Assembly (NCBI GenBank): GCA_031285115.1
Contig: JAITWU010000037.1
Location: 1 to 18,388, forward strand
Reading direction: 5' to 3'
DNA length: 18,388 bases
DNA from: Azonexus sp.
GTDB lineage: Bacteria > Pseudomonadota > Gammaproteobacteria > Burkholderiales > Rhodocyclaceae
Below, one piece after another: positions 1 to 13,801 of the stretch. The notes beneath the pieces were generated by a model that had not been told where the DNA came from, searched no databases, and saw nothing but the letters and a program-made list of their open reading frames with translations. Each line of letters begins with the position of its first letter. Within the stretch, counting starts at the first letter, position 1. A program made the position numbers and the translations under genes.

Positions 1-332
1 TGGGCAAAACAGCCTCCAAGTCGGAAGGCTGGACCATCAGTGGCGCCATTCCCTTCGGCAAGCATACGATCCTCGCCAGCTACTCGGCTTACAACGATAA
101 GTCGGATTTCAAGGGGGCCAACGGCAAAAATGATCGCGATGGCTCCTTGATCGGTATCGCTTACATCTACAAGATTTACGACAACACTGCGCTTTATGCC
201 AACTACGGCAAACAGTACAACCAACGCAATGCCAGCCAGAGTCTGGGTGACGCCAGTGATCTGGTCGGTAGTCTGAGCCGGACCGGCTATGACCCGAGCG
301 GCTTCATGATGGGTCTGAACACCCGGTTCTAG
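1..332 (+). CDS. Outer-membrane porin, C-terminal fragment (5' end outside window)
   Basis: An open frame runs in from the left edge (first full codon at base 3) and stops at 330-332. The roughly 109 visible residues alternate polar and hydrophobic positions as in beta-strands (ILASYSAYND, ALYANYGKQYN). They end in GFMMGLNTRF, with the terminal phenylalanine that the outer-membrane barrel assembly machinery recognises. This is the usual end of a general trimeric porin of betaproteobacteria. The start, signal peptide and constriction loop are not visible, so substrate selectivity cannot be judged. A strong terminator follows within 20 bases, which separates it from the downstream regulator. 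The nearby ATG at 147 is internal to the same frame and is not a gene start. Confidence 0.85.
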   Translation, partial: GKTASKSEGWTISGAIPFGKHTILASYSAYNDKSDFKGANGKNDRDGSLIGIAYIYKIYDNTALYANYGKQYNQRNASQSLGDASDLVGSLSRTGYDPSGFMMGLNTRF

Positions 333-350
333 GCCAGTTGCCCACCCCAG

Positions 351-385
351 CCAGGCTGTCCGCTGCGGACAGCCTGGGTTTTGTT
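351..385 (+). terminator. Rho-independent terminator of the porin gene
   Basis: A perfect 12-bp stem pairs CCAGGCTGTCCG (351-362) with CGGACAGCCTGG (366-377) around a 3-base loop. It is followed by GTTTTGTT. It lies 18 bases after the porin stop codon. Confidence 0.9.
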
Positions 386-424
386 GATAACCGTTCGCGC
401 TGCGTATTTCCAATCATTTTTTTT

Positions 425-440
425 ATGCACTGCCAAGCAA
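425..440 (+). promoter_or_regulatory. Possible partial operator (ATGCAC-TGCCAAGCAA)
   Basis: ATGCAC (425-430) is followed directly by TGCCAAGCAA (431-440). Both pieces resemble the elements seen upstream of the aldehyde dehydrogenase and DUF1329 genes (ATGCAC and TGCAAGCAA), but the 5-nt spacer and the second RTGCAY box are missing. It could be an autoregulatory site of the AraC-family regulator or a chance match. Confidence 0.3.
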
Positions 441-634
441 GACTCGGCGCAACAGACATCCGAAATTGCCCAGGCAGCAAAGACCCAATTGCACCATTCA
501 TCAGAAAAAATCGGGCGACAAGGGGTGACAAACGGTTCCACCGGATTGTGAGCTGCGGCGGATGCGTCGGCAGCAGATCGTCGAGACGCGGGAACGCCGC
601 CGCAGCGGCGCGGCCAGCGGCAGGGTGAAGTGAA

Positions 635-641
635 AAGGAGG
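635..641 (+). promoter_or_regulatory. Ribosome binding site of the AraC regulator
   Basis: AAGGAGG, a full Shine-Dalgarno match, ends 6 nt before the ATG at 648. It decides the start: the in-frame GTG at 630 lies upstream of this site and would have no such signal. Confidence 0.85.
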
Positions 642-647
642 AGGCGA

Positions 648-1676
648 ATGTCCTTGATGAACACGATGCAGCAAAGTGGCATGGCCCGCAGCGCGCTACC
701 CGCCCCCGGCGAGTTTCATCAGCCTGCCGTGTGGGCCAGTCAGGTGCGCCAGCGTTTCTTTCCGCTCGATTTGACGGTTGCCCGTGACGATCATTTCAGT
801 GCTCAGGCGCGGCTTGCCGGGTATCCGCAATGCCGCATGGCGCAAGTTGCCGCCAGCGCGCACGTTGCCTCGATGAGCCGGGCGGGGTGCAGCGCGTTGC
901 GCCAGCGGTACGTCAAAGTCCTGTGGGAACTCGATGGCGTCGGGTGGCTCGAACAGTCCGGCCATGAAGTGCGGCTGCCGCCCGCGCATTTCACTATCTA
1001 CGAAGCCAGTCGGCCTTATGCGATCCGCACCGAAAGCCAGTCGGCCTTCGTGGTCTTGCTGTGCGAAGTGGCGCCCAATGATCTTCTCGCCTCTCTGGCC
1101 CAGCGCGTCGCTGGCCGTTCGCTGCCGACCACCGGCAGCGCTGCGGTGGCGCTGGCCGCCGTGCAGGAGATGGTGGCGCAGGGCGAAACCATCAGTCACG
1201 GCAGCCGTTTTACCGTCCTCGAATTCGTCTCGTCGCTGCTGGCGCAGCAGATCAACGCGCTGGAAGGCGTGAGCGGCGTCAGGCGCAAACGCTCCCAGGA
1301 TGAATTGCTGCGCGAGGCGGTGCAGTACATCCGCTGCCACATGGGCGACGGCGACCTGTCGCCCGACCGCATCGCCAGCGCCCTCAACATCTGCCGCCGG
1401 ACGCTGTATCAGGTTTTTTCGCTGATCGGCGAGACGCCGCAGGCAACCGTTCAGCGTCTGCGGCTGGAGCGCTGCCGGGACATCCTCGCGCAGCATGGCG
1501 GCGAAAAGGCGAATATCACCGATCTCGCCCTGCAATACGGTTTTTCCGATCCGGCCTATTTCGCCCGGCTGTTCCGCCGGATGTTTGGCGTCGCGCCGTC
1601 GCAATACCGCGACGATGGCGGCGGCGCGCTGGATATTTCGCAGCTCATGCCCGCGCCGGGCAGCCGTCGGCAATGA
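648..1676 (+). CDS. AraC-family transcriptional regulator (FeaR-like role)
   Basis: The product is 342 residues, normal for AraC-family activators. Residues about 40-205 resemble the effector-sensing N-terminal domain of the FeaR/OruR-type branch. Residues about 218-322 are the DNA-binding domain with two helix-turn-helices: the first around LSPDRIASALNICRRTLYQVF (about 237-257), the second around ITDLALQYGFSDPAYFARLF (290-309), the family signature. The start at 648 is chosen from the Shine-Dalgarno AAGGAGG at 635-641. It lies directly upstream of the aldehyde dehydrogenase and amine dehydrogenase operon in the same orientation, separated by 152 bases. In E. coli, FeaR of this family activates aromatic amine oxidase (tynA) and phenylacetaldehyde dehydrogenase (feaB). 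By context I infer a similar role here: sensing an aromatic amine or its aldehyde and activating the downstream operon. The effector is unknown. Confidence 0.9.
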   Translation: MSLMNTMQQSGMARSALPAPGEFHQPAVWASQVRQRFFPLDLTVARDDHFSAQARLAGYPQCRMAQVAASAHVASMSRAGCSALRQRYVKVLWELDGVGWLEQSGHEVRLPPAHFTIYEASRPYAIRTESQSAFVVLLCEVAPNDLLASLAQRVAGRSLPTTGSAAVALAAVQEMVAQGETISHGSRFTVLEFVSSLLAQQINALEGVSGVRRKRSQDELLREAVQYIRCHMGDGDLSPDRIASALNICRRTLYQVFSLIGETPQATVQRLRLERCRDILAQHGGEKANITDLALQYGFSDPAYFARLFRRMFGVAPSQYRDDGGGALDISQLMPAPGSRRQ

Positions 1677-1706
1677 GGCGCGCGGCGTCAGACGGGGGCC
1701 GTCGAT

Positions 1707-1770
1707 ATGCACCCGTTTCGGCCAACGGTGCATTGAAGTGCAAGCAACCCGGCGGGCGAGATCCTAGAGT
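1707..1770 (+). promoter_or_regulatory. Putative regulator-dependent promoter of the aldehyde dehydrogenase/aau operon
   Basis: In order: ATGCAC (1707-1712), 15 nt, GTGCAT (1728-1733), 5 nt, TGCAAGCAA (1739-1747), 17 nt, TAGAGT (1765-1770). The last would be a weak -10, placing TGCAAGCAA over the -35 position, as expected for an activator bound next to RNA polymerase. The centres of the two RTGCAY boxes are 21 bp apart, two helical turns. The same arrangement recurs at 7095-7159. The bound protein is inferred to be the upstream AraC-family regulator; there is no direct evidence. Confidence 0.5.
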
Positions 1771-1828
1771 TGATCCGCCATCGAGGAATCGCCACCCACG
1801 GGTAAACCCTGCACAAACGGAGATTTGC

Positions 1829-3283
1829 ATGTCTGCGCCGCAAACATACCAACACCTGATCGCCGGAACCAGCCGCGAGGCTTCTGACGGCGCTGTTTTT
1901 GACAAATTCGAGCCGAGCACGGGGCAGCCGCTGGCTCAGGTTGCCGCTGGCACGGCGCGTGATGTGGACGCTGCCGTGGCGGCGGCGCGCGCCCAGTTCG
2001 ACGGCGGCGAGTGGCGGCGGATGCCGGGCGCGGCGCGCGGACGCCTGCTCAACCGGCTGGCCGATTTGCTGGAGCGGGATGCCGAGCGTTTCGTCGACAT
2101 TCTGGCGCGGGAGCAGGGGCGTCCGGTCATGGAAATGCGCCTGCTCGATCTGCCCTTGTCGATCGACACCATGCGCTATTTCGCGGGCTGGGCGGACAAG
2201 CTCGAAGGCCGCCAGATTCCGACCGGCGGCTTCATGGGCAAGCCGACCCTCAACTACACCCTGCGCGAGCCGGTCGGCGTCGCTGCCTTGATCGTGCCCT
2301 GGAATGCGCCGCTGATGATCGCCTGCTGGAAACTCGCCCCGGCGCTGGCGGCGGGGTGCGCGGTCGTCATCAAACCTTCGGAAGACGCGCCGCTGGCGGT
2401 CGATGCTTTGGCCCGGCTGACGCTGGAAGCGGGTTTTCCGCCGGGCGTCGTCAATCTCGTGCATGGCGTCGGCCCGGTTGTCGGCGCGTCGCTGGTCAAG
2501 CACCCCGGTGTGGACAAGGTCAGTTTCACCGGCAGCACGGCGGTGGGACGCCTGATTGCCCAGGAAGCCGCAGCGTCGTTCAAGCGGGTGACGCTGGAAC
2601 TGGGCGGCAAGGCGCCGCAGATTCTGCTCGAAGACGCGCCGCTGGAAGACGCCATTGGCGGCTTGATGATGGGCCTGTTCGTCGATCAGGGCCAGACCTG
2701 CGCCGCCGGGAGCCGCATTCTCGTCCATCGGCGGCATTATGACGATGTGGTGAGCGCCCTGGCTGGCGCGGCGCGTTCGCTCAAACTGGGCGATCCCTTC
2801 GATCCGGCGACGCAGATGGGCGCTTTGATCAGCGAGCGGCACGCCGGGCGCGTCAAATCGCATATCGACGCGGCGCTCAGGGACGGCGCGCGGATGGTCG
2901 CCGGGACTGAACCGTTGCCGGCGCAAGGCTATTTCGTGCGCCCGACCATTTTTGCCGATGTCGCGCCGACGATGGGCATCGCCCGCGACGAGATATTCGG
3001 CCCGGTTGGCGCGGTGATTCCTTTCGACAGCGAGGAAGATGCGGTGGCGCTGGCCAACGACACCAACTATGCGCTGTCGGCTTCGCTGTGGACGAAAAAT
3101 GTCAGCAAGGCGCATCAGATTGCCGCCCATCTGCGCGTTGGCGCGGTCGCCATCAATGGCTGGAGTCCGCTCGATGCCCGTCTGCCCTGGGGCGGCTTCA
3201 AGGACAGCGGCGTTGGCCGCGATCTTTCGAGCAAGGCGCTTGATGGCTATCTGGAAGAAAAAGTCGTCACCGTCATCATGTGA
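1829..3283 (+). CDS. NAD(P)-dependent aldehyde dehydrogenase (phenylacetaldehyde dehydrogenase-like)
   Basis: The product is 484 residues, the normal length of the aldehyde dehydrogenase superfamily. Visible catalytic residues are Asn159 in IVPWNAP, the general base Glu257 in TLELGGKAP and the nucleophile Cys291 in QGQTCAAGSR. The nucleotide-binding loop FTGSTAVGR and the C-terminal motif PWGGFKDSGVGRD are also present. There is no signal peptide, so it is cytoplasmic. The start at 1829 has ACGGAG upstream; the longer frame opening at 1673 overlaps the regulator's end and adds residues unlike the family. It stands first in the amine-oxidation operon, 21 bases before a cytochrome gene. I infer that it oxidises the aldehyde made by the amine dehydrogenase (for example phenylacetaldehyde to phenylacetate). 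Family sequence alone does not fix the substrate. Confidence 0.92.
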   Translation: MSAPQTYQHLIAGTSREASDGAVFDKFEPSTGQPLAQVAAGTARDVDAAVAAARAQFDGGEWRRMPGAARGRLLNRLADLLERDAERFVDILAREQGRPVMEMRLLDLPLSIDTMRYFAGWADKLEGRQIPTGGFMGKPTLNYTLREPVGVAALIVPWNAPLMIACWKLAPALAAGCAVVIKPSEDAPLAVDALARLTLEAGFPPGVVNLVHGVGPVVGASLVKHPGVDKVSFTGSTAVGRLIAQEAAASFKRVTLELGGKAPQILLEDAPLEDAIGGLMMGLFVDQGQTCAAGSRILVHRRHYDDVVSALAGAARSLKLGDPFDPATQMGALISERHAGRVKSHIDAALRDGARMVAGTEPLPAQGYFVRPTIFADVAPTMGIARDEIFGPVGAVIPFDSEEDAVALANDTNYALSASLWTKNVSKAHQIAAHLRVGAVAINGWSPLDARLPWGGFKDSGVGRDLSSKALDGYLEEKVVTVIM

Positions 3284-3304
3284 CCGGCGCAATACCTCAG
3301 AACG

Positions 3305-3769
3305 ATGAAGCTGATTTTCTGCCCTGCATCCGCTACCCGCCCGCGACAAAGGCGGCGTTGCCGCTGTTCGGGCGTCGCGCTGGGCGCGGCGTTTGGTGCG
3401 GCGTTTTGCGTTGCGGCTGCGGTTTCGGCGGTTGCCCAAGCCGCCCCGCTCGATGTCGGGCGAACCCTGTTCCGCACCAATTGCGCGCTGTGCCATTCGG
3501 CGGTCGCAGGCGACCCGCCCGGCGTTGGCCCCAATCTCCACGGTGTGCTTGGCCGCGATGTCGCAACGCTACCCGGTTTTACTTACACCCCGGCGCTGGC
3601 GGCGGTTGGCGGTAGTTGGGACGCGCCGCGCCTGTTGGCCTTTTTGACAGCGCCCGCAGAATTTGCGCCGGGGACGGCGATGCCTTTCGCCGGTCTCAAA
3701 TCCGAACGCGAGCGCCGGGCGCTGGTTTGTTTTCTCGGCGGCGACGCCCAGGCGGAGGTTTGCCGATGA
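3305..3769 (+). CDS. Periplasmic class I c-type cytochrome
   Basis: The product is 154 residues with one haem-binding motif CALCH (Cys60, Cys63, His64) and a likely axial methionine at Met126 in GTAMPFAGL. It has the VGPNLHGVLGR and FTYTPAL segments typical of mitochondrial/cytochrome c2-type class I cytochromes. A long basic N-terminus (residues 1-20) precedes a hydrophobic stretch, with likely signal cleavage after AQA at residue 46. The start at 3305 has no good Shine-Dalgarno; translation may be coupled to the upstream gene. The stop overlaps the aauB start by 4 bases (ATGA at 3766-3769). This close coupling suggests it accepts electrons from the amine dehydrogenase or passes them towards an oxidase. 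The published Alcaligenes faecalis aau cluster, as I recall it, has a cytochrome only after aauA, so this upstream one may be an added component. Confidence 0.88.
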   Translation: MKLIFCPASATRPRQRRRCRCSGVALGAAFGAAFCVAAAVSAVAQAAPLDVGRTLFRTNCALCHSAVAGDPPGVGPNLHGVLGRDVATLPGFTYTPALAAVGGSWDAPRLLAFLTAPAEFAPGTAMPFAGLKSERERRALVCFLGGDAQAEVCR

Positions 3770-4926
3770 ACAGACTTTCACTCACTCAACGCCTTTTCGG
3801 CGCGGCTGTCATGACCTTCGCCATCAGCGCCGCTGCCGCGCTGCCGGAAGAAAATATCAGCATCGAGCCGCTTGCCGCGCCCAATCCGCAGCGCCTCTAT
3901 GTGAACGACCCGGCCATGAACCACATCGTCGATGGTCGGGTACACGTCATCGACACGGGCCGGATGCGTTACCTCGGCCTGATTGGCGCTGGTTACGCCG
4001 CGTCCACGACCCTGTCGCGGGACGGCAAGCTCTTTTTCGTCGCCACCACCTACAACAGCCGCTTGCAGCGCGGCGAGCGTACCGATGTCATCGAAGCCTG
4101 GCGGACCTCGGATCTGAAGCTCGATCACGAAATCGTGATTCCGCCCAAACGGGCGCAGGCGCTGCATATCAAGGCGCTGGCGCGGACGACGGCGGATGAC
4201 CGTTTTCTCCTCGTGCAGAACGCGACGCCAGCGACTTCGGTGGCCGTGGTCGATTTGTCGGCGCGTAAAGCCGTCAGCGAAATCGCCCTGCCGGGATGCT
4301 GGGGCGTCATTCCCTGGCCGCAGTCGCCCCGCCGCTTTTCGACGGTGTGCGGCGATGGTTCGCTGACCACGGTCGAACTCGACGCCGATGGCAAGGAAGC
4401 CCGGCGCGGCGTCGGGCCGCGCTTCTTCGATCCGGACGGCGATCCGGTTTTCATGCACTACGAACTGGCGGGCAATCGCCTCCTGTTCGTTTCTTATTAC
4501 GGCAATATTTATTCGCTCAAACTCGAAGGCAACCAGCCGCAGGCCGAAGCGCCCTGGTCTTTCGTTGATCAAAAGGCAAAAAAACAGGGCTGGCGTCCGG
4601 GCGGCTTCGCCTTGTTCGCGCTGGAGCCGAAGAGCAACCGGCTGATCGTCGGTATGCACCCAAAAGGCAGCGAAGGCAGCCACAAAACACCGGCAGCCGA
4701 ACTGTGGGTGATTGATCTGGCGGAGCGCCGCGTCGTCACCCGCGCCCCCGGCCACATGGCGCTGTCGATGACGGTCATCCGCGATGAGCGGCCGGAGTTG
4801 ATCGTTCTCAACGCGGTTGATAACACGCTGTTGGCCTTCGACCTGAACGCCCGGCGCGGCTTGGCGAAGCCGCTGCGGCGCTCGGCCCCGGTTGGCGAAA
4901 CGCCGGTTTTCATGGAGGCGCACTGA
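3766..4926 (+). CDS. aauB: Aromatic amine dehydrogenase heavy (alpha) chain
   Basis: The product is 386 residues with a signal peptide (cleavage near AAA, residue 25), followed by a seven-bladed beta-propeller of the amine dehydrogenase heavy-chain family. Segments match my memory of the A. faecalis aromatic amine dehydrogenase alpha chain better than methylamine dehydrogenase: GRVHVID, TTYNSRLQRGERTDVIEAW, PPKRAQ, QNATPATS, FVSYYGNIYS and the HPKGSEGSHKTPAAELWVID stretch. Cys178 and Cys195 (in GCWGVIP and TVCGDG) lie where that protein has a conserved cysteine pair. The subunit forms an alpha2beta2 complex with AauA in the periplasm and shapes the substrate channel. The ATG at 3766 lies within the upstream stop (ATGA overlap), and aauE follows after a single base. 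The frame extends upstream to 3616, but that part lies inside the cytochrome gene and is not translated here. Confidence 0.93.
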   Translation: MNRLSLTQRLFGAAVMTFAISAAAALPEENISIEPLAAPNPQRLYVNDPAMNHIVDGRVHVIDTGRMRYLGLIGAGYAASTTLSRDGKLFFVATTYNSRLQRGERTDVIEAWRTSDLKLDHEIVIPPKRAQALHIKALARTTADDRFLLVQNATPATSVAVVDLSARKAVSEIALPGCWGVIPWPQSPRRFSTVCGDGSLTTVELDADGKEARRGVGPRFFDPDGDPVFMHYELAGNRLLFVSYYGNIYSLKLEGNQPQAEAPWSFVDQKAKKQGWRPGGFALFALEPKSNRLIVGMHPKGSEGSHKTPAAELWVIDLAERRVVTRAPGHMALSMTVIRDERPELIVLNAVDNTLLAFDLNARRGLAKPLRRSAPVGETPVFMEAH

Positions 4927-4927
4927 A

Positions 4928-5476
4928 ATGCTGGCCGGGCTGACGCTCGACCCGGTGCTTGCCGACGCTGCGGCAGCGGCGATGGGCTGCATTTTTCTCT
5001 CCGCCGCCTGGGTCAAGCTGATGGATGTCAAACGCTTTGCCGCCGTGCTCGACAACTACGCGCTGCTGCCCGACGATTGGCTTGATCCGGTTGCCTGGCT
5101 GTTGCCGCTCCTTGAAATGGCTGCCGGTCTGCTGCTGCTTTTTTCCGCCAGCCGCGCAGCCGGGAGCGCCCTGGCGCTGGTGTTGCTGGCTCTGGTCAGC
5201 GCCGCAGTGGCGGTGAATGTGGCGCGGGGTCGCACCGGCTTTGAATGCGGTTGCGGCGGCGACGAATTGCCGCTGGCGGGCAGTCTGCTGCTCCGCAACG
5301 CGGCGCTCGCCGCGCTCTTGCTGATGGCCGCCCAGCGCCCGGCGGAAAGAGCCGTGGTCTGGGTCGATGTGGTCACGACGGTGATGCTCACCCTGTTCCT
5401 GCTCGGGCTGTTCAAGGTGACCAACCTGCTGCTCGGACAGAGGGAAAAACTCGAACGATTGGGTAAAACGCCATGA
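4928..5476 (+). CDS. aauE: MauE-family membrane protein for light-chain maturation
   Basis: The product is 182 residues of largely hydrophobic sequence, with membrane segments near 15-33, 55-73, 78-98, 120-136 and 146-168. A Cys-x-Cys motif (Cys107, Cys109 in FECGCGG) sits between two segments. This is the MauE family, which with MauD is needed to produce stable amine dehydrogenase light chain in the periplasm, probably by supporting formation of its many disulfides. The CxC is the likely redox-active site (inference). The start at 4928 is preferred over the in-frame ATG at 4892 because it follows the aauB stop by one base and gives the usual family N-terminus. Its stop overlaps the aauD start (ATGA, 5473-5476). 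Confidence 0.9.
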   Translation: MLAGLTLDPVLADAAAAAMGCIFLSAAWVKLMDVKRFAAVLDNYALLPDDWLDPVAWLLPLLEMAAGLLLLFSASRAAGSALALVLLALVSAAVAVNVARGRTGFECGCGGDELPLAGSLLLRNAALAALLLMAAQRPAERAVVWVDVVTTVMLTLFLLGLFKVTNLLLGQREKLERLGKTP

Positions 5477-6096
5477 ACGAAGCCTTGATGATTTCAAACG
5501 TCCTGCTCTGGTGCGCCGTCGTCGCGCTGATCGTGGTCGTCATTGCGCTGTCGCGCCAGATCGGCATTCTTTACGAGCGCATTGCGCCGATGGGCGCTTT
5601 GATGATGGATTCCGGCCCCAAGGTCGGCGAAGCGGCGCCGGTGCTCGAACTTCCCTCGCTCCAGGGCGGGCGGATTGCCGTTGGCGCGGCGGGGGCGCGG
5701 GCGACGCTGCTGTTTTTCCTGTCGCCGACCTGCCCGGTATGCAAAAAGCTGCTGCCCATCATTTTGTCGCTGCACGCGGCGGAAAAATCCTTCGAGTTGG
5801 TCTTCGCTTCCGATGGCGAGCAGCCAGCGCATGAAAGTTTCCGCAAAAAAGCCGGGTTGTCGGCCTTTCCCTACGTGCTTTCGTCTGAATTGGGAATGCG
5901 CTGGCGCATCAGCAAACTGCCTTACGCCGTGCTCATCGACCGTAACGGCATCGTCCGCGCCAAGGGTCTCGTCAATTCGCGGGAACAACTGGAGAGCCTG
6001 TTTACCGCCGAGGAACTTGGCCTTGCCTCGGTGCAGGATCTCATCGACAAACGGATTGCCGCTGGCGCTCTCGAACTCGTCAAGGAACAGACATGA
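5473..6096 (+). CDS. aauD: MauD-family thioredoxin-like protein for light-chain disulfide formation
   Basis: The product is 207 residues. A single N-terminal membrane anchor (about 8-27) is followed by a periplasmic thioredoxin-fold domain. The active site is Cys87-Pro-Val-Cys90 in SPTCPVCKK, the MauD signature; the cis-proline loop is near KLPYAVLID. MauD is required in methylamine-using bacteria, and AauD in A. faecalis, for folding of the cysteine-rich light chain, acting as a disulfide oxidase or isomerase. Overlaps of 4 bases with aauE upstream and aauA downstream indicate translational coupling, which fits a maturation factor made together with its client. Confidence 0.92.
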   Translation: MNEALMISNVLLWCAVVALIVVVIALSRQIGILYERIAPMGALMMDSGPKVGEAAPVLELPSLQGGRIAVGAAGARATLLFFLSPTCPVCKKLLPIILSLHAAEKSFELVFASDGEQPAHESFRKKAGLSAFPYVLSSELGMRWRISKLPYAVLIDRNGIVRAKGLVNSREQLESLFTAEELGLASVQDLIDKRIAAGALELVKEQT

Positions 6097-6626
6097 ACTG
6101 GCTCTGGAATCTGCTCGATCGAAGCGTCGAGCAACACAGCCGACAACTGGCGCAGCGTATGTCGCGCCGCAGTCTGCTGGCCAAGGTCGGGCGCGTCCTC
6201 GTCGCCGCCGCTTTCACGCTGCCGGTGCTGCCTTTTGACCGGACGGCGCAGGCTCTGGCGCAGGGCAAAAAAACCAAAGAGCCGAGCGATACCGATTGCG
6301 ACTACTGGCGTTATTGCTCGGTCGATGGTTTTCTCTGCTCCTGCTGCGGCGGCAGCATGACGACCTGCCCGCCGGGTTCGACGCCCTCGAAAGTTTCCTG
6401 GATCGGCACCTGCCACAATCCGGTCGATGGTCTCGATTACATCGTCAGCTACAACGACTGCTGCGGCGTGACGCCGTGCGGCAGATGTTTCTGCAACACC
6501 AACAGCGGCGACCGGCCAGGTTACCGGCTGGGGCAGCATAACGACATCAACTGGTGCATGGCCAATCACGAATCGGTTTACCACTGCACGGTCTCGATCA
6601 TCGTCGGCGTTGCCGAAAAAGAGTGA
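6093..6626 (+). CDS. aauA: Aromatic amine dehydrogenase light (beta) chain carrying tryptophan tryptophylquinone
   Basis: The product is 177 residues. The leader contains a twin-arginine motif (SRRSLL, residues 24-29) before a hydrophobic stretch, so export of a folded precursor by the Tat system is likely. The mature part has 14 cysteines (CDYWRYC, FLCSCCGG, DCCGVTPCGRCFC). Trp103 (SWIGTC) and Trp154 (NWCMAN) are 51 residues apart, as the two cofactor tryptophans are in A. faecalis AADH (Trp109, Trp160). The offset of 6 also maps the catalytic Asp128 to Asp122 (YNDCC), Asp84 to Asp78 (VDGF) and Thr172 to Thr166 (HCTV). All key catalytic and cofactor residues are therefore present and the enzyme should be active. 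It oxidises primary amines, classically tyramine and phenylethylamine, to aldehydes with release of ammonia. Confidence 0.95.
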   Translation: MNWLWNLLDRSVEQHSRQLAQRMSRRSLLAKVGRVLVAAAFTLPVLPFDRTAQALAQGKKTKEPSDTDCDYWRYCSVDGFLCSCCGGSMTTCPPGSTPSKVSWIGTCHNPVDGLDYIVSYNDCCGVTPCGRCFCNTNSGDRPGYRLGQHNDINWCMANHESVYHCTVSIIVGVAEKE

Positions 6627-6633
6627 TCTCGCC

Positions 6634-7056
6634 ATGAGCCGCACGAAGTCGACCGGAATCGCCCTGGCTGCGGCGCTGGTCGCCGCTGCGGCCAGCGCCG
6701 AATCCGGCGACGCCCGCGCCTATCGCAACTATGTACTGCACTGCGCCGGTTGCCATCAGCTCGACGGAAGCGGTGCGCCGGAGGAAGGCGTTCCGGTCAT
6801 GCGCGGCGTGCTGGGCGCTTTTCAGGAAGTGCCGGGGGGCCGCGAATACCTGGTGCAGGTGCCCGGCGTCATGAATTCCGGGTTGTCCGATCATCAGGTT
6901 GCCGAATTGATGAACTGGCTGATTCCGCAAATGGCGGGCCGGGAACCGGCTTACACCGCTGCCGAAATTGCCCGGTTGCGCGCTTCCCGGCCTGTGGATA
7001 TTGCCCTCGCCCGTTTGCAGCTCATCGAAAAAATGTCGGTTGGCCGCCGTCCCTGA
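6634..7056 (+). CDS. Small periplasmic mono-haem c-type cytochrome
   Basis: The product is 140 residues with a signal peptide ending near ASA (residue 22), haem motif CAGCH (Cys37, Cys40, His41) and possible axial methionines Met56 or Met80 (PGVMNSGLSD). It follows aauA by 7 bases, so it is the last gene of the amine-oxidation operon. The A. faecalis aau cluster also has a small mono-haem cytochrome gene (orf-2) directly after aauA, so this position is probably conserved. Likely role: electron acceptor or relay for the dehydrogenase. The start at 6634 is chosen over the ATG at 6610, which lies inside aauA. I see no strong terminator after the stop, so some read-through into the DUF1329 cassette is possible. 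Confidence 0.9.
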   Translation: MSRTKSTGIALAAALVAAAASAESGDARAYRNYVLHCAGCHQLDGSGAPEEGVPVMRGVLGAFQEVPGGREYLVQVPGVMNSGLSDHQVAELMNWLIPQMAGREPAYTAAEIARLRASRPVDIALARLQLIEKMSVGRRP

Positions 7057-7094
7057 AACCGATCCGGCGGCAGTCAAGCGCCGAACAGAAAACC

Positions 7095-7159
7095 ATGCAC
7101 GGCATTGCGCTTCCTCATGCACGGCAATGCAAGCAAGCAGCGGTGGCGGCGGATAACTT
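7095..7159 (+). promoter_or_regulatory. Putative regulator-dependent promoter of the DUF1329 cassette
   Basis: In order: ATGCAC (7095-7100), 16 nt, ATGCAC (7117-7122), 5 nt, TGCAAGCAA (7128-7136), 17 nt, TAACTT (7154-7159). The first two boxes sit in a 15-bp direct repeat (7094-7108 and 7116-7130, one mismatch, period 22 bp, two helical turns), typical of AraC-family operators. A further ATGCAC lies at 7185-7190, downstream of the inferred start of transcription. The layout matches 1707-1770 to within one base. The binding protein is inferred to be the AraC-family regulator of this locus. Confidence 0.5.
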
Positions 7160-7224
7160 TTTGCCATCGTGTTGCATGGCGTTCATGCACGACACGAATG
7201 ACCAAAGAAAGAGTGAGGAGAGAC

Positions 7225-8610
7225 ATGTCCCGTTTACCCAATCTGACGATTGCCGCCGCAACGGCTGCTTTCGTGTTGCAGACAGTATCCGTCGCGGCAT
7301 TGGCCGACGGCTCCCGGCTTGGCGTCGAACTGACCAGCGCTGGCGCTGATCCGGGCGGCAGCAAGGATGGCGTCATCCCGGCCTGGAAAACGCCCGACGC
7401 CAATTTGCCGGGCTGGTCAGCCGGTAAAAAGCGCAAGGACTTTTTCAAATACAAGGACGACAAGCCGCTGTTCGCCATCGACGCCGCGAATGTCGATAAA
7501 TACGCCGACAAGCTCTCGCCCGGTCAGGTTGCGCTCATCAAAGAGACCAAAGGCTACCGCATGGATGTCTACCCGACGCGGCGGACTTGCGGCAATCCCG
7601 ATTTCGTTGTCGAAAACACCCGCAAGAACGCCGATGGCGCGGCCAAATTGGGCGACGATGGCTGGAGTTTGAAGGAGGCCGTCGTACCCGGCATTCCTTT
7701 CCCGATACCGGCCAATGGCGCTCAGGCGATGTGGAACGCCAAGTTCAAGTACGCCGGGGTCGGCATCGACATGGTCAAGGTTTTCGTCGCCCTGTCGCCG
7801 CGCAAAGGCACGAGCGAGTGGGTGCGCATCACGTCGACGCAAACCTACTATTACCCGTGGGGCAAAAAAGGCTCGGCCCTGTTGTCGCAGATACCGCCGG
7901 TCGAGTATGAAACCTACTTCGCCTATGAAGCGCCGACGGCGCTGGCCGGGCAGGCGCTGGTCTACACCTCTTACACCGACAAGGCGAGCGAAACCTTCTA
8001 CTACTTTCCGGGCCAGCGGCGCGTCAGACGTATGCCGACCTATTCCTACGACGCGCCCCAGGTTGGTTTCGAGAATCAGTACACGGTCGATGAACCGCGC
8101 GTCTTCAATGGCACGATGGATCGTTTTGACTGGAAGCTGGTCGGCAAGAAGGAAATGTATATCGGCTACAACGCCTTCGGCATGTACGACCCGAACGTCG
8201 GTTTCGATGCCGTCGCTGGCGGCGAATTCATCGACCCGGCCCAGCGCCGCTATGAATTGCACCGGGTCTGGGTGGTCGAGGCGACGGTCAAGCAGGGCGT
8301 CCGGCACGTTGCGCCGAAGCGGACTTTCTACATCGACGAAGATAGCTGGTCGCTGGTCGCGGCGGACGATTACGACGCCCAGGGGAAACTGTGGAAATTG
8401 CGTGAATCCTTCGTCATTCCGATTCAGGAAACCGGCAGTTGCGACAACCCGGCCTTTGTCCAGTACAACCTGCTCGAAGGGCGCTATCTGTTCGATCAGG
8501 GGCCGCTCGCCTCCGGTCAGGACATGCGCTGGGTGGTCGAAGCGAAGGACCCGAGATTCCGCGACGCTTTTTACACGGCGGACAACCTGCGCGCAATCAG
8601 CGAGCGCTAA
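7225..8610 (+). CDS. DUF1329 periplasmic protein
   Basis: The product is 461 residues with a signal peptide (likely cleavage after ALA, residue 27), then the DUF1329 domain over nearly the whole mature chain. Recognisable parts are the N-terminal GADPGGSKDGVIPAW and the strands RITSTQTYYYPWG, YFPGQRRVRRMPTYSYDAPQ, YIGYNAFGMYDP and RRYELHRVWVVEATVKQG. The fold is thought to resemble LolA/LolB-type lipid-binding half-barrels, which suggests binding of a hydrophobic molecule between the membranes. No enzymatic activity is established for the family to my knowledge. The start at 7225 has GAGGAG upstream. It is first of a cassette with DUF1302, RND and YCF48-like genes, an order I recognise as recurrent in proteobacteria. 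Confidence 0.9.
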   Translation: MSRLPNLTIAAATAAFVLQTVSVAALADGSRLGVELTSAGADPGGSKDGVIPAWKTPDANLPGWSAGKKRKDFFKYKDDKPLFAIDAANVDKYADKLSPGQVALIKETKGYRMDVYPTRRTCGNPDFVVENTRKNADGAAKLGDDGWSLKEAVVPGIPFPIPANGAQAMWNAKFKYAGVGIDMVKVFVALSPRKGTSEWVRITSTQTYYYPWGKKGSALLSQIPPVEYETYFAYEAPTALAGQALVYTSYTDKASETFYYFPGQRRVRRMPTYSYDAPQVGFENQYTVDEPRVFNGTMDRFDWKLVGKKEMYIGYNAFGMYDPNVGFDAVAGGEFIDPAQRRYELHRVWVVEATVKQGVRHVAPKRTFYIDEDSWSLVAADDYDAQGKLWKLRESFVIPIQETGSCDNPAFVQYNLLEGRYLFDQGPLASGQDMRWVVEAKDPRFRDAFYTADNLRAISER

Positions 8611-8623
8611 TGACAACCGGCGC

Positions 8624-8646
8624 ACGCCAACCGCCACGGTTGGCGT
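8624..8646 (+). other. Intercistronic hairpin between the DUF1329 and DUF1302 genes
   Basis: A perfect 9-bp stem pairs ACGCCAACC (8624-8632) with GGTTGGCGT (8638-8646) around the loop GCCAC. No T-tract follows, so it is not a standard terminator. It lies in a 75-base gap, the largest within the cassette, 14 bases after a stop codon. It may stabilise or process the mRNA and set different amounts of the two proteins. Confidence 0.55.
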
Positions 8647-8670
8647 CAGGCGCGAACGGGAACAATCGAC

Positions 8671-8675
8671 GGAGG
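8671..8675 (+). promoter_or_regulatory. Ribosome binding site of the DUF1302 gene
   Basis: GGAGG lies 10 nt before the ATG at 8686 and only 4 nt before the in-frame TTG at 8680, which is too close. It therefore supports the ATG start. Confidence 0.65.
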
Positions 8676-8685
8676 CAGATTGATC

Positions 8686-10341
8686 ATGCAAAAACAGATA
8701 AATAAACCGATCACGCGCGTCGCGCTGATCGCTTTGGGTGCGATGTCGTTCCAGACGGCGGGAGCATTCACTTTTGAAACGGAAAGCCTGCGCGGCAGTT
8801 TCGATTCCTCGATCGGAATCGGCCTTGGCGTCCGTACCCTGTCGCCTTCCTGCGGCCTCGTGACAGATGGCGCGACGGGGCGCGGCGCGCCTTCGGGTTG
8901 TCTTGCGCCGACTTCGATGCTGGGCGATCAGGGCGATCTCAACTATGAGCGCGGCGATGCTTTCGCCGCCCAGCTCAAGGGTAACCATGAGCTGCTGCTC
9001 AAGGCTCCGGATGTCGGCCTCGCCTTTATGGCGCGGGTAAACTGGGTGCGCGATTTCGCCGCGACGGAAACCACTGGCGTCACCAGCGCGACGACGCCGC
9101 CGGACATCCGGCACGGTCAGAGTTCGAGCGCCCGCGATGATTTGCGCTTCAAAGCGCGTCTGCTGGATTTGTGGTTGAGCAAATCCTTTACCGTTGGCGA
9201 GCAATCGGTGCGCGTGCGCGTCGGCAATCAGGTCATCAGTTGGGGCGAAAGCCTGTTTCTGCCGGGCGGCATCAACAGCACCAATGCGCTCGACATCATG
9301 CGTCTGTCGCAGCCGGGCACGCAACTCAAGGAAGTCTTCCTGCCAGCGCCGATGGTCAGCGTCGCCGCCGGTGTCGGCGACCATGTCAATGTCGAAGCCT
9401 ACGTCCAAACCAACTGGAACAAGAGCTACTTCCCGCCGAGCGGCAGCTACTGGTCGGTGGTCAACGGCCTCGGCAAAGGTTCCGGCGCTTACGGGCTGCG
9501 CGACCTCGATGCCAAAAACAGCGGCCAATGGGGCGTCGCGCTGAGGTATCAGCCGGAAGGCACGCAGATCAATCTGGGCCTCTATGCGATGAACTTTCAC
9601 GACAAAACGCCCCAGTTCACGTACAACGGCAAGAACGAGGGGATCGTCGGCTGGGTCTATGCGGAAAATCGCAGGCTGTACGGCGTCAGCGCCAATTTCC
9701 CACTCGGCGACTGGGCCATTGGTACTGAGCTTTCTTACCGGCCCAGAGATGCCGTGGCGCTCAACTCGATCAGCGGGTGCCTGTCGCAAAACGGTGATTG
9801 CTGGGTTGATGAAAAACGCTGGCAGTGGCACCTCACGGGGCTTTTGAGCCTGACGCCGGGCGGCGCTGGCAGCGGCGTGCTGGATATTGTCGGGGCCAGT
9901 ACCGGAACTTTGCTGGCCGAAGGCGTGGTCATCTATTACCCGGACATGAAGCGCGACTACGGCGGCGACCCGGTTGCCGCTGGTGGCTGGGGCTGGGGGC
10001 TGGAATATGACCCGGCGGCGAATATGAAGGCGGTTGGCACGAGGGCTTCGTCGGGCATCAATTTCGATTTCAGCCTGACTTACGACGGTACGATCATTCC
10101 CGGCTGGCAGGTCATTCCCGGCATCTACTATTTTCAGGCGCTGTCGGGGCGCACGCCCAATGCCTCCGGCTTGTTCATGAAGGGCGCCAAGTCATTGAAT
10201 CTCTACGTGAATTTCGTGCAAAACCCGGCAACCTGGCAGTTCGGGGTGAATTACGCCGCCTTCCGGGGCGGCTCGTCGCCTTTCGACCAACCCTATCGTG
10301 ACCGCGATTATTTCGGCGCTTATGCAACCTACAACTTCTGA
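8686..10341 (+). CDS. DUF1302 outer-membrane protein
   Basis: The product is 551 residues with a signal peptide (likely cleavage after AGA, residues 25-27). The mature N-terminus FTFETESLRGSFDSS and the motif RVRVGNQVISWGESLFLPGG are hallmarks of DUF1302. The chain is rich in alternating aromatic strands and ends in YATYNF with a terminal phenylalanine, consistent with an outer-membrane beta-barrel. Its function is unknown; members often sit next to DUF1329 and RND genes. The last 20 bases overlap the start of the transporter gene. Together with the DUF1329 protein it could form the outer-membrane and periplasmic part of a path for a hydrophobic compound, in either direction (inference). Confidence 0.9.
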   Translation: MQKQINKPITRVALIALGAMSFQTAGAFTFETESLRGSFDSSIGIGLGVRTLSPSCGLVTDGATGRGAPSGCLAPTSMLGDQGDLNYERGDAFAAQLKGNHELLLKAPDVGLAFMARVNWVRDFAATETTGVTSATTPPDIRHGQSSSARDDLRFKARLLDLWLSKSFTVGEQSVRVRVGNQVISWGESLFLPGGINSTNALDIMRLSQPGTQLKEVFLPAPMVSVAAGVGDHVNVEAYVQTNWNKSYFPPSGSYWSVVNGLGKGSGAYGLRDLDAKNSGQWGVALRYQPEGTQINLGLYAMNFHDKTPQFTYNGKNEGIVGWVYAENRRLYGVSANFPLGDWAIGTELSYRPRDAVALNSISGCLSQNGDCWVDEKRWQWHLTGLLSLTPGGAGSGVLDIVGASTGTLLAEGVVIYYPDMKRDYGGDPVAAGGWGWGLEYDPAANMKAVGTRASSGINFDFSLTYDGTIIPGWQVIPGIYYFQALSGRTPNASGLFMKGAKSLNLYVNFVQNPATWQFGVNYAAFRGGSSPFDQPYRDRDYFGAYATYNF

Positions 10342-12733
10342 TGTCGCGGACGCCGGGCGCGGTACGCCGAGCCGCGCCCGGCGGGCGTTGCATTGGCTGG
10401 AAGAGTTTTGTTTCGCGCACCGGGCGGCGCTGCTCGCAGTCCTTGCGGTGTTTACCGTGGTCATGGGCTGGTTTGCCCTGCAACTGCGCATGGACGCCGG
10501 TTTTGAAAAGCAGATGCCGATCGGGCATGAGTACATCCAGACTTTCAACACCTACCGCGACGACGTTTTGGGCGCCAACCGGCTCAATTTCGTCGTCCAT
10601 GCGCGCAACGGCGATATCTGGACACCGGCTGGACTGAAGCGGCTGTATGAGGTTACGCAGGCCGTTACTTTTCTGCCGGGGGTCGATCGCCTCGGCGTCC
10701 AGTCGTTGTGGACGCCCAATGCTTTCGTCAATGAAATCACTGAAGAGGGCTTTCGCGCCGACCCGCTGATTTCCGGCGCCCTGACGCCGGAACAACTGAC
10801 GCCGGAAGCCATCGAGACGATCCGCGGCGCGGCCCAGCGCGGCGGCTTCATCGGCACCCTGGTGGCGCGCGACAACAGCAGCGCCATGATCGTCGCCGAT
10901 TTGTCCGATGTGGATAAGGACGGCAAACGGCTCGATTACGTTGCCTACAACAAAATTCTCGAAGAAAAAATCCGCCGCCCGTTCGAGGATGCCGATTTCG
11001 AGGTCCAGATCATCGGCTTCGCCAAACAGATCGGCGACATCGCCGATGGCGCCTCGGCGGTTATCAAATTCTGCCTGATTGCGTTGAGCCTGACCGCCAT
11101 CGCCGTCTATTGGTACTGCCATTCGCTGCGCTTCACGCTGTTGCCGATTGCCTGTTCGCTGGCTTCGCTGGTCTGGCAGTTTGGCGCGCTGCGTCTGCTC
11201 GGCTTTGGACTCGACCCGCTGGCCGTGCTGGTTCCCTTTCTCGTGTTCGCCATCGGCGTCTCGCACGGCGTCCAGCAGATCAACTACATCGTCCGCGCCA
11301 TCTCGCGCGGCGTCAGTTGTTTCGATGCCTGCCGGTCGAGTTTCACCGGCCTGCTCATTCCCGGCACGCTGGCCCTGGTGACGGCGCTGGTGTCCTTTAT
11401 TACGCTGCTCCTGATTCCCATCCCGATGGTGCGCGAATTGTCGATTGCCGCCTCGCTGGGCGTCGGCTTCAAGATCATCACCAACCTCGTGATGCTGCCG
11501 GTCGCCGCCTCGTACTTCAATATCGGCAAAGATTACGCCGACAAAGCCATGCTCAAGCGGGAGAAGCGCGCCGGCTGGCTGCGCGGTCTGGCCAGGGTGG
11601 CTGAACCGCGCCACGCAACCTTTACCCTCGTTCTGGTCACGGTGCTCTTTGCCAGCGCCGTCTGGCAAAGCCGCGACCGGGTGGTCGGCACGCTCCAGCC
11701 CGGCGCGCCGGAACTGCGCGAGGAGGCGCGTTTCAACCGTGACGCCGTCGCCATCGCCAGCCACTACGACAATGGCCTCGACTGGCTGACGGTGATTTTT
11801 GAAGCAGCGCCGGAAAGCTGCGACAACGTCAATGCCGGTCTTTACCAGAACCGCTTTGCCCAGGCCATGCTGCCGGTTCCGGGCATTCTCTCGATTTCCT
11901 CTTTCGCCGGTCAGTTGCGGCTCTACAGCGAAGGCTACAACGAAGGTAATCCGAAAATGAACGTGGTGCCGATCGACGCCGCCAACTACGCGGCGCTGGC
12001 CATCGAGATTTCGCGCGTCCGCGGCATGATGCGCAAGGATTGCAGCATGACGGCGGCGCATCTGTACCTGACCGACCACAAGGCGACGACGATCAAGCGC
12101 GTGATCGAGGCCGTCAAAACCTTTCGTGAAACCCACCATGAAGACGGCGTGACGATCCGGCTCGCTTCAGGAAACGCTGGCGTCCTCGCCGCCATCGACG
12201 AAGAAATAGAACGCAGCGAATTACCGATGATGCTCTATGTCTATGCCGCCATCGTCATTCTCGTGTTGCTGGTCTATCGTGATTTCCGCGCCGTGCTGGC
12301 CTGCTGCCTGCCGCTCACCGTGGGCACTTTCATCGGCTACTGGTTCATGAAGGAACTCCAGATCGGCCTCACCGTCGCCACCCTGCCGGTGATGGTTCTC
12401 GCCGTCGGCATCGGCGTCGATTACGCCTTCTACATCTATAACCGTCTGCAACTCCACCTCGCCAACGGTCAGCCGATCGTCAAGGCCATCGAGCACGCCA
12501 TGCTCGAAGTCGGCATGGCGACGATCTTTACCGCCATCACGCTGGCTGTCGGCGTGGCGACATGGTCTTTTTCCGAACTCAAATTCCAGGCCGACATGGG
12601 CAAATTGCTGGCCTTCATGTTCATGGTCAACATGGTCATGGCGATGACGGCGCTGCCAGCCTTCGCTGTCTGGCTCGAACGCCTGTTCCCGCGCCGTGGG
12701 CCAGTGCGTGCGCCGGGGCTGCTGCAACACTGA
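10322..12733 (+). CDS. MMPL/RND-superfamily transporter
   Basis: The product is 803 residues with the duplicated RND layout: membrane helix 1 (about 34-54), a large periplasmic loop, helices 2-6 (about 246-395), helix 7 (about 431-449), a second large loop, and helices 8-12 (about 636-785). It resembles the MMPL-type branch (predicted exporters, COG1033-like), not AcrB-type pumps, which are over 1000 residues. Helix 10 carries Asp700-Tyr701 (GIGVDYAFY), the proton-relay type pair of MmpL proteins. The matching site in helix 4 is Ser314-His315 (IGVSHGVQQ). No membrane-fusion adaptor or TolC-like gene is nearby. The start at ATG 10322 overlaps the DUF1302 gene by 20 bases; an upstream GTG at 10298 is possible. 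Neither has a clear Shine-Dalgarno, so translation is probably coupled. Substrate unknown. Confidence 0.88.
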   Translation: MQPTTSDVADAGRGTPSRARRALHWLEEFCFAHRAALLAVLAVFTVVMGWFALQLRMDAGFEKQMPIGHEYIQTFNTYRDDVLGANRLNFVVHARNGDIWTPAGLKRLYEVTQAVTFLPGVDRLGVQSLWTPNAFVNEITEEGFRADPLISGALTPEQLTPEAIETIRGAAQRGGFIGTLVARDNSSAMIVADLSDVDKDGKRLDYVAYNKILEEKIRRPFEDADFEVQIIGFAKQIGDIADGASAVIKFCLIALSLTAIAVYWYCHSLRFTLLPIACSLASLVWQFGALRLLGFGLDPLAVLVPFLVFAIGVSHGVQQINYIVRAISRGVSCFDACRSSFTGLLIPGTLALVTALVSFITLLLIPIPMVRELSIAASLGVGFKIITNLVMLPVAASYFNIGKDYADKAMLKREKRAGWLRGLARVAEPRHATFTLVLVTVLFASAVWQSRDRVVGTLQPGAPELREEARFNRDAVAIASHYDNGLDWLTVIFEAAPESCDNVNAGLYQNRFAQAMLPVPGILSISSFAGQLRLYSEGYNEGNPKMNVVPIDAANYAALAIEISRVRGMMRKDCSMTAAHLYLTDHKATTIKRVIEAVKTFRETHHEDGVTIRLASGNAGVLAAIDEEIERSELPMMLYVYAAIVILVLLVYRDFRAVLACCLPLTVGTFIGYWFMKELQIGLTVATLPVMVLAVGIGVDYAFYIYNRLQLHLANGQPIVKAIEHAMLEVGMATIFTAITLAVGVATWSFSELKFQADMGKLLAFMFMVNMVMAMTALPAFAVWLERLFPRRGPVRAPGLLQH

Positions 12734-12739
12734 GATGAG

Positions 12740-13750
12740 ATGAAAGATTCAATCCGCCCAACCCGTTTTCGCCTCTGGCGCGGCGCTGCGGCATTGCTGC
12801 TGGCCGCCTGCCTCAACGCCGCCGCTGCCGAAACGCAAGCGCTGGCGCTGACGCTGCATCCCGCCGAACAGACCGTCCTCGCCGCGAAAACCATGATGTT
12901 GGCCGCCGTCACGGCGGGCAAGCGCATCGTTGCCGTTGGTGACCACGGCGTCGTGCTGCTCTCGGACGATGAAGGCCAATCCTGGCGTCAGGCCCGTTCC
13001 GTGCCCGCCGACGTGATGCTGACTGCGGTCAGCTTTGTCGATGCGCAACAAGGTTGGGCGGTCGGACACTGGGGGTTGATCCTGCACACGGGCGACGGCG
13101 GCGAGACCTGGACAGTGCAGCGGCTGGCGACGGATGAAGACCGGCCCTTGTTCGGCGTGCATTTTCGCGACGCGCGGCGCGGCGTCGCCGTCGGGCTGTG
13201 GTCTCTCATCCTGACTACCGATGACGGCGGCGCGACATGGCGGACACAGACATTGCCGCCGCCTGCCGGGGCCAGGCGGGCCGACCTCAACCTGTTCAGC
13301 CTGACGGCTGACCGTAACGGCAACTGGTACGCGCCCTCCGAGCGCGGTTTGGTTCTCCATTCAGCCGATGACGGCCTCACCTGGAACTGGCTCACGACCG
13401 GCTTCAAAGGCTCGCTGTGGAGCGTCGCCGCCTTGCCGGACGGCGTTCTGCTGGCGGCGGGATTGCGCGGCGCGCTCTATCGCAGCGTCGACGGCGGCGG
13501 CAACTGGAGCGCCGTCGCCAGCGGCGCTTCCGCTTCCATCATTTGGCTGGCATGGCGGGATGGCAAACTGATCGGCGTCAGCGTCGATGGCGAATTTCTG
13601 TCAAGTCATGACCAAGGCGCGAGTTTTCAACGCGCCCATAGCGATGATCGCCTTGCGCTGACCGGCGCGCTGATTTCTCCGGGCGGACAAACCGTGCTGC
13701 TGTCGCGTCAGGGGCCGGTGCGCTATAGCGGTAGCGGTTCCGGCCAATAA
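12740..13750 (+). CDS. YCF48-like exported beta-propeller protein
   Basis: The product is 336 residues with an N-terminal export signal and six BNR/Asp-box-type repeats: SDDEGQSW, TGDGGETW, TDDGGATW, SADDGLTW, SVDGGGNW and the degenerate SHDQGASF. This matches the YCF48/photosystem II assembly factor HCF136 fold, which in non-photosynthetic proteobacteria often accompanies RND transporters with DUF1302 and DUF1329. The signal could be a lipoprotein type (LLAAC, Cys24) or be cut after AAAA near residue 30. It begins 6 bases after the transporter stop, so it is in the same operon. Probably a periplasmic assembly or scaffolding partner of the transporter (inference). It is the last gene before the convergent terminator. 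Confidence 0.87.
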   Translation: MKDSIRPTRFRLWRGAAALLLAACLNAAAAETQALALTLHPAEQTVLAAKTMMLAAVTAGKRIVAVGDHGVVLLSDDEGQSWRQARSVPADVMLTAVSFVDAQQGWAVGHWGLILHTGDGGETWTVQRLATDEDRPLFGVHFRDARRGVAVGLWSLILTTDDGGATWRTQTLPPPAGARRADLNLFSLTADRNGNWYAPSERGLVLHSADDGLTWNWLTTGFKGSLWSVAALPDGVLLAAGLRGALYRSVDGGGNWSAVASGASASIIWLAWRDGKLIGVSVDGEFLSSHDQGASFQRAHSDDRLALTGALISPGGQTVLLSRQGPVRYSGSGSGQ

Positions 13751-13763
13751 AGCAGATGCCACA

Positions 13764-13795
13764 TTCCGGACTTCCGCACAGGCGGAAATCCGGAA
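13764..13795. terminator. Hairpin between convergent operons, probable bidirectional terminator
   Basis: A 14-bp inverted repeat pairs 13764-13777 with 13782-13795 around a 4-base loop. There is one C/A mismatch when read on the plus strand, which becomes a U-G wobble on the minus strand. It starts 13 bases after the YCF48-like gene's stop and lies 6 bases beyond the rne stop on the other strand. On the plus side TTATTTTT follows about 7 bases later (13802-13809). There is no T-run on the minus side. Confidence 0.7.
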
Positions 13796-13801
13796 AACCC
13801 C

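Follow-up and report, generated by a model that had tools for sequence, protein, structure and literature searches.

In an Azonexus sp., the genes of amine oxidation and a membrane transport cassette next to them appear to share one activator. The DNA in question, here called the window, is a stretch of 18,388 nt (contig JAITWU010000037.1 of assembly GCA_031285115.1, positions 1 to 18,388). Within it, the same three-box site, made up of two hexamer boxes, the 9-mer TGCAAGCAA and a -10 hexamer, stands upstream of two gene groups (Table 1): an operon for an aldehyde dehydrogenase and a tryptophan tryptophylquinone (TTQ) amine dehydrogenase, and an envelope cassette encoding DUF1329, DUF1302, resistance-nodulation-division (RND) and YCF48-like proteins. 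Judging from sequence, each site is very probably a tandem FeaR-like operator with its -10 element, through which a FeaR-like protein would bring about class II activation of both operons.

The paired sites and their conservation

The first-pass annotation of this DNA had described one three-box layout before both operons, and direct reading finds the boxes, gaps and positions as it claimed. The pattern ATGCACN{15,16}RTGCAYN5TGCAAGCAA matches twice in the window and never in 200 dinucleotide shuffles, as does TGCA-N6-TGCAAGCAA-N17-TANNNT when at most 2 mismatches are allowed (2 vs. 0 in 200 shuffles). Across the source genome (G000; 83% complete, with 2.64 Mb spread over 414 contigs), TGCA-N6-TGCAAGCAA has 2 exact matches, both in the window, and 0 in the reversed control; there are none with 1 mismatch and 37 more with 2, giving 39 in total against 8 in the reversed control. 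The two-copy composite is exact, and its origin by chance is unlikely.

The motif was picked after being seen, so it is the relatives that carry the argument. Ortholog searches used peptide patterns or at most 5 scored candidates per genome, and orthologs may therefore be missed; close orthologs of the putative regulator encoded at 648–1676 were found in two genomes, one of the same genus (G013, 88% identity) and a Rhodocyclaceae metagenome-assembled genome (G562, locus L093, 73%). Both sites are kept in both of these other genomes found with a regulator ortholog of at least 73% identity. G013 is syntenic with the window. In G562, one site lies upstream of an aldehyde dehydrogenase gene (85%), after which the TTQ operon is replaced by genes for a quinohemoprotein (cysteine tryptophylquinone, CTQ) amine dehydrogenase, the alpha, radical-SAM maturase and beta genes scoring above NCBIfam cut-offs. 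The second G562 site, resembling copy 2, was found by pattern scan before the genes downstream were known; DUF1329 begins 134 bp past its first base and is followed by DUF1302, RND and YCF48, with proteins 83, 79, 84 and 65% identical to those of the window. A scan of related genomes had been suggested with the first-pass annotation, and boxes and spacing do recur in G013 and G562 before the aldehyde dehydrogenase and DUF1329 genes. In Derxia gummosa (regulator 42–44%), a site followed by N17-TAGCCT stands upstream of an aldehyde dehydrogenase gene (71%) that lies 5.8 kb away from the regulator. Searching 5.8 billion proteins added four regulator relatives at 70–76%, on contigs of 9.6–20.2 kb, and a group at roughly 40–55%, some of them named Burkholderia, Variovorax, Comamonas or Derxia.

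Seven sites, six from the window, G013 and G562 plus that of Derxia, were aligned on box 2. The six share the invariant core TGCA-N6-TGCAAG, the seven NGCAAG, and in 7/7 TANNNT follows exactly 17 nt past the 9-mer position. Two direct half-sites 21–22 bp apart are present in every one, the spacing being 21 in copy 1 of the window and G013 and 22 in the other five, and the inner half-site reads TGCAC/T-N8-AAG throughout. Among the six sites, 13/21 positions in boxes and -10 are invariant vs. 1/22 in spacers (Fisher p 6e-5), and in the copy-1 trio 19/21 vs. 9/22 (p 7e-4). Two details of the first-pass annotation hold for the window pair and loosen beyond it: the 9-mer, identical in both copies, varies in relatives (TGCAAGCAC, TGCAAGCAG, TGCAAGTGG), and the second box, RTGCAY in both, is relaxed elsewhere.

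Specificity was gauged with looser patterns. In the four genomes (G000, G013, G562 and Derxia), TGCACN{15,17}TGCAYN8AAG has 11 matches and none in the reversed control. Seven are the aligned sites (two each in the window, G013 and G562, one in Derxia); two correspond to each other in G000 and G013 and precede AraC-type genes; of the last two, one lies on contig C131 of G000, within and antisense to a gene that is translation-factor-like by its sequence, and the other is its counterpart on C9 of G562. Both composite patterns, the looser being TGCAC-N15..17-TGCAY-N8-AAG, are absent from 34 loci (L055–L088) that have a related TTQ enzyme and lack this regulator in the fetched DNA, which includes some short contigs; of shorter patterns, TGCA-N6-TGCAAG matches once there (L082) and TGCAC-N16..17-TGCAC once (L083). 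The composite search of 399 genomes of the order, G013 and G562 excluded, gave 21 matches in 19 genomes (reversed control 2); those beyond the window's two count neither way, the loose composite arising elsewhere too. TGCA-N6-TGCAAGCAA occurs at 17 places in 16 of 120 relatives (reversed control 3), 14 of them beyond the window and G013; the three neighborhoods opened among these 14 (L089–L091) hold no matching genes, except for a weak aldehyde dehydrogenase match in L089.

The candidate activator and its alternatives

The protein encoded at 648–1676 carries an N-terminal AraC_binding_2 domain (PF14525, 3.9e-15) and a C-terminal HTH_18 domain (PF12833, 7e-20), as in AraC/XylS-family regulators with AraC_binding_2. 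ATG 648 is a likelier start than GTG 630, and AGGAGG lies directly 5' of it. The top NCBIfam match is FeaR (NF007243), and because its score of 97.7 bits falls below the cut-off of 199, the protein is called FeaR-like rather than FeaR.

According to an excerpt of PMC4640556, FeaR activates tynA and feaB in Escherichia coli. Upstream of feaB in strain K-12, TGTCACAGCTGACAAAG and TGTCACAGCGAAAAAAG form two TGTCA-N8-AAA repeats 21 bp apart; upstream of tynA, there are two TGGCA 21 bp apart, with N8-AAA after the first only. The published FeaR consensus reportedly goes back to Zeng and Spiro 2013. With CAC as the anchor, the window's inner half-sites read CAC-N8-AAG (copy 2) and CAT-N8-AAG (copy 1). 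With a FeaR-related regulator and a similar repeat geometry, the proposal that an AraC-type activator would bind over the -35 is the best reading. That one regulator would serve both operons, as the first-pass annotation had suggested, is likewise the best reading, with both sites kept alongside orthologs of at least 73% and the composites absent from the 34 loci without it. The 9-mer varies more than that annotation had assumed, and the outer half-site is degenerate.

How might such a site work? The inner half-site, TGCAY-N5/6-TGCAAG, would offer two contacts one helical turn apart, fitting the two helix-turn-helix motifs of one AraC-family monomer, and the outer half-site, 21–22 bp upstream, keeps TGCAC, whereas its second contact (TTTC in copy 1, TTGC in copy 2) is probably weaker. 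A pair of monomers would then lie side by side, and since the inner one would cover a poor -35, the bound activator, most likely the FeaR-like protein 648–1676, would touch RNA polymerase (class II activation). In this way it may switch on the aldehyde dehydrogenase and TTQ amine dehydrogenase from a promoter near 1765, and the DUF1329-DUF1302-RND-YCF48 cassette from one near 7154. The cassette's part in this catabolism would be to carry the amine, a toxic aldehyde or an intermediate that damages membranes through the envelope or out of it. The inducer may be the amine or the aldehyde; for inducer and cargo alike, naming amine, aldehyde, or protection from them is guesswork.

Several observations weigh against this reading. 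The regulator and the motif co-occur in three genomes plus Derxia, and in Burkholderia cenocepacia (L132; regulator 55%) the patterns used find no such site before a 74% aldehyde dehydrogenase; a looser match lies about 310 bp upstream of the regulator match there. The spacing of copy 1 is 21 bp in two genomes but 22 bp in the third, and Derxia and copy 2 of G562 have a relaxed box 2 (CTGCAC, TTGCAC). The copy-2 trio, with 15/21 invariant box and -10 positions vs. 13/22 spacer positions, shows no significant contrast (p 0.30) because its spacers are conserved as well; 17/57 of its ungapped flank positions are invariant. The kinship of the operator to that of FeaR is only partial, since N8-AAG follows the outer half-site in 0/7, though TGCAC is retained, whereas both feaB repeats have AAA. 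Finally, within the window, the best 26-bp ungapped match of the two intergenic regions (18/26) is equalled by 20/500 shuffle pairs, and a shared 9-mer arises in 65/500. With these two tests so weak, one genome by itself is no more than suggestive, and taken alone the ungapped match might mean that two GC-rich intergenic regions resemble each other by chance. The likelihood of that is nonetheless vanishingly small: the composite is absent from shuffles, and it is conserved in relatives, which already contradict chance.

Another possibility is that the sites are real AraC/FeaR-like operators and that a different AraC-family protein binds one or both. A candidate is encoded on contig C312 of the same genome, where an AndR-like regulator with AraC_binding_2 adjoins an aldehyde dehydrogenase gene and has its own TGCAC-N16-TGCAC-N8-AAG upstream; a counterpart AraC-type gene and site occur in G013 (contig C67). 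This also weighs against the FeaR-like activator as sole binder, cross-recognition being possible. Similar spacing also occurs near related regulators: TGCAC-N16..17-TGCA lies no more than 100 bp past the end of the regulator match in 8 of 15 other FeaR-like loci (27–55% identity), though several are near-identical and amount, by eye, to about four independent cases. In the other seven (L130, L132, L133, L136, L138, L144, L146), no TGCAC-N15..17-TGCA was found within that distance, L130 having its site upstream of the aldehyde dehydrogenase instead; the 15 loci together have 16 matches of that pattern in 431,790 strand-bases. Binding by another such protein nevertheless seems unlikely, as the C312 site deviates outside the common skeleton and the window sites, which adjoin a regulator of their own, are retained in G562, where the enzyme differs yet this regulator stayed.

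A further alternative concerns copy 2, which could be a fossil left by a promoter duplication and play no part in regulation; read-through from the preceding amine operon would then transcribe the cassette. The last cytochrome gene and DUF1329 lie on the same strand just 168 bp apart, and in nine loci of the genus (B-type, below) the gap before DUF1329 is -4 to 67 bp. Copy 2 is, however, the more regular of the two, a visible 22-bp tandem repeat with 13/17 internal matches vs. 5/17 in the degenerate copy 1, and with its -10 it is conserved in three genomes, one of which has a different operon upstream. A fossil is thus very unlikely, and control of both promoters by the FeaR-like protein remains the preferred reading.

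Three further observations concern the same regions. A perfect inverted repeat, TGCATG-N5-CATGCA, at 7173–7189, between the predicted transcription start and DUF1329, is retained in G013 and not in G562; it is possibly a leader hairpin or a second operator. A single half-site, TGCAC-N8-AAG, stands at 426–441, about 220 bp 5' of the regulator start (TGCGC in G013), and in G562 TGCAC boxes 22 bp apart lie upstream of the regulator (L093, 9900–9941), making autoregulation possible.

Table 1. Sites and genes of the window, with the basis of each assignment.
Feature	Position	Strand	Basis or remark
AraC/XylS-family regulator, FeaR-like	648..1676	+	AraC_binding_2 + HTH_18 (Pfam)
Operator copy 1 (putative)	1707..1747	+	outer box ATGCAC 1707-1712; inner half-site GTGCAT-N5-TGCAAGCAA 1728-1747, 21 bp apart (GTGCAT 1728-1733, TGCAAGCAA 1739-1747)
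-10 of copy 1, TAGAGT	1765..1770	+	17 nt past 9-mer; CTAGAGT invariant across three genomes
Aldehyde dehydrogenase	1829..3283	+	nearest NCBIfam phenylacetaldehyde dehydrogenase StyD, below its cut-off
c-type cytochrome	3305..3769	+	Pfam
TTQ amine dehydrogenase heavy chain, aauB-like	3766..4926	+	Pfam; below methylamine dehydrogenase cut-off
MauE-like	4928..5476	+	Pfam
MauD	5473..6096	+	NCBIfam, exceeds cut-off
TTQ amine dehydrogenase light chain	6093..6626	+	closest solved structures aromatic (aralkyl)amine dehydrogenase
c-type cytochrome	6634..7056	+	Pfam
Operator copy 2 (putative)	7095..7136	+	ATGCACGGCATTGC and ATGCACGGCAATGCAAGCAA, 22 bp direct repeat; ATGCAC 7095-7100, ATGCAC 7117-7122, TGCAAGCAA 7128-7136
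-10 of copy 2, TAACTT	7154..7159	+	17 nt past 9-mer; TAATAT in G013, TAACCT in G562
DUF1329, AmeB-like, LolA-like periplasmic protein	7225..8610	+	Pfam; PMC6394551
DUF1302, AmeA-like outer-membrane protein	8686..10341	+	Pfam; PMC6394551
RND/MMPL protein of HAE3 type, AmeD-like	10298..12733	+	NCBIfam; TIGR00921 138.7 bits, below cut-off 351.9
YCF48/PSII_BNR protein, AmeC-like	12740..13750	+	NCBIfam

The light chain scores 193.7 bits to aromatic amine dehydrogenase vs. 153.2 to the best methylamine dehydrogenase chain, and is thus nearer to the aromatic (aralkylamine) enzyme.

A different shared motif at other loci of the genus

A light-chain match is present in 30 of 120 genomes searched (own included), at 36 places in total, and the surroundings of the 35 outside the window were fetched. 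Among genus loci with enough flank (L055–L080), DUF1329 lies downstream in 26/26 (only its first part, at the edge, in L069), DUF1302 in 25/26 and the RND gene in 23/26; 4 further genus loci are on contigs too short to judge. The fetched stretches of 4 light-chain loci outside the genus contain no DUF1329 cassette genes.

Sixteen of the genus loci (A-type, L055–L070) lack the FeaR-like regulator and the TGCAC motif; their amine operon and DUF1329 share TTGCCRATTYTTGATA instead. This motif emerged when word counts of the DNA 5' of aauB and of DUF1329 were compared. With at most one mismatch, it stands 95–121 nt before the inferred aauB start and 99–121 nt before DUF1329 in 16/16, with only 6 other matches in these loci. 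At similar spacing it is followed by GATACT before aauB (AATACT in L068) and by TACACT before DUF1329 (TAGACT in L068 and L070). Its presence in the 16 loci is not independent evidence, because it was derived from them; its presence at both promoters is, and so is the genome-wide contrast, with matches in 16/16 A-type genomes vs. 0/3 genomes with the FeaR-like regulator (reversed control 0 in 19). A EutR-like AraC gene occurs in 14/16 of the fetched A-type stretches, two partial at the edge (those of L055 and L065 have none), and its product is a candidate for the regulator binding TTGCCRATTYTTGATA; that of L061 scores 164.5 bits to NCBIfam EutR, cut-off 319.

In the nine B-type loci, neither the TGCAC composite nor a TTGCCRATTYTTGATA site was found, and DUF1329 starts -4 to 67 bp past the preceding reading frame. 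Amine operon and cassette may form one transcript there; the gap alone is not decisive, since some A-type loci with the motif have equally short gaps (8–52 bp).

Other features were noted in these regions. Just before TTGCCRATTYTTGATA upstream of DUF1329, TGAT-N4-ATCA dyads are visible by eye in 12/16 A-type loci (L055–L059, L061, L063–L067, L069); we take them to be FNR/Anr-like, and they perhaps place the cassette under oxygen control. L055, L056, L057 and L067 have a third TTGCC-N7-GATA between aauA and DUF1329, about 1.9–2.2 kb before the latter, perhaps another promoter of the regulon. Sigma-54 promoters were considered as a shared signal, and by the pattern used none occurs before aauB or DUF1329 in L055–L084.

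The cassette and comparison with known systems

An Ame-like cassette and periplasmic amine oxidation thus appear to have stayed under common control despite changes of regulator, operator or enzyme. That the pairing is kept by two unrelated shared operators, perhaps also by one operon, and once with a CTQ enzyme would be difficult to account for if the cassette did not serve periplasmic amine oxidation. A broader proposal, which we find as easy to doubt as to accept, is that in the genus and one relative the cassette is an envelope system dedicated to periplasmic amine oxidation by tryptophylquinone enzymes, selection for joint expression having outlived exchanges of regulator and operator (FeaR-like with TGCAC repeats vs. 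TTGCCRATTYTTGATA with a EutR-like candidate, or possibly the joining of both into one operon) and of enzyme (TTQ vs. CTQ). Regulatory rewiring would be seen here in clean form, with the parts exchanged and the wiring diagram unchanged.

Cassettes of this kind have little known function, the role in monoterpene metabolism in an excerpt of PMC6394551 being the only one met; among titles and abstract openings of open-licence papers, no published link to amine oxidation was found. An operator common to cassette and amine oxidation suggests concretely what cargo and inducer might be (an aryl-alkylamine or aldehyde), and the shared activator makes the cassette's tie to amine use testable.

AmeABCD of Castellaniella defragrans, described in that excerpt as an efflux system of monoterpene metabolism, matches the window cassette in all four kinds of component: an outer-membrane DUF1302 protein, a periplasmic DUF1329 protein, a YCF48-like protein and an HAE3 RND protein (PMC6394551), which occur together in the window. 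The likeness is one of component kind. The order differs, being DUF1329-DUF1302-RND-YCF48 in the window, whereas the accession numbers for Castellaniella suggest DUF1302-DUF1329-YCF48-RND, and the window cassette is linked to amine, not monoterpene, catabolism. Compared with aau/mau and qhp amine dehydrogenase operons, the set of enzyme and maturation genes is as expected; what differs is the shared operator, which in the window would couple the amine operon to the envelope cassette.

The FeaR regulon (feaR, feaB, tynA) is similar in having an AraC-family activator adjoining an aldehyde dehydrogenase gene, a 21-bp repeat layout upstream of feaB and tynA and, in the excerpted source, a single regulator for amine and aldehyde oxidation (PMC4640556). 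It differs in that the window regulator is merely 24% identical to E. coli FeaR, that the box is TGCAY rather than TGNCA, with N8-AA in the inner half-site only, and that a TTQ dehydrogenase (CTQ in G562) takes the place of a copper oxidase, with the envelope cassette added.

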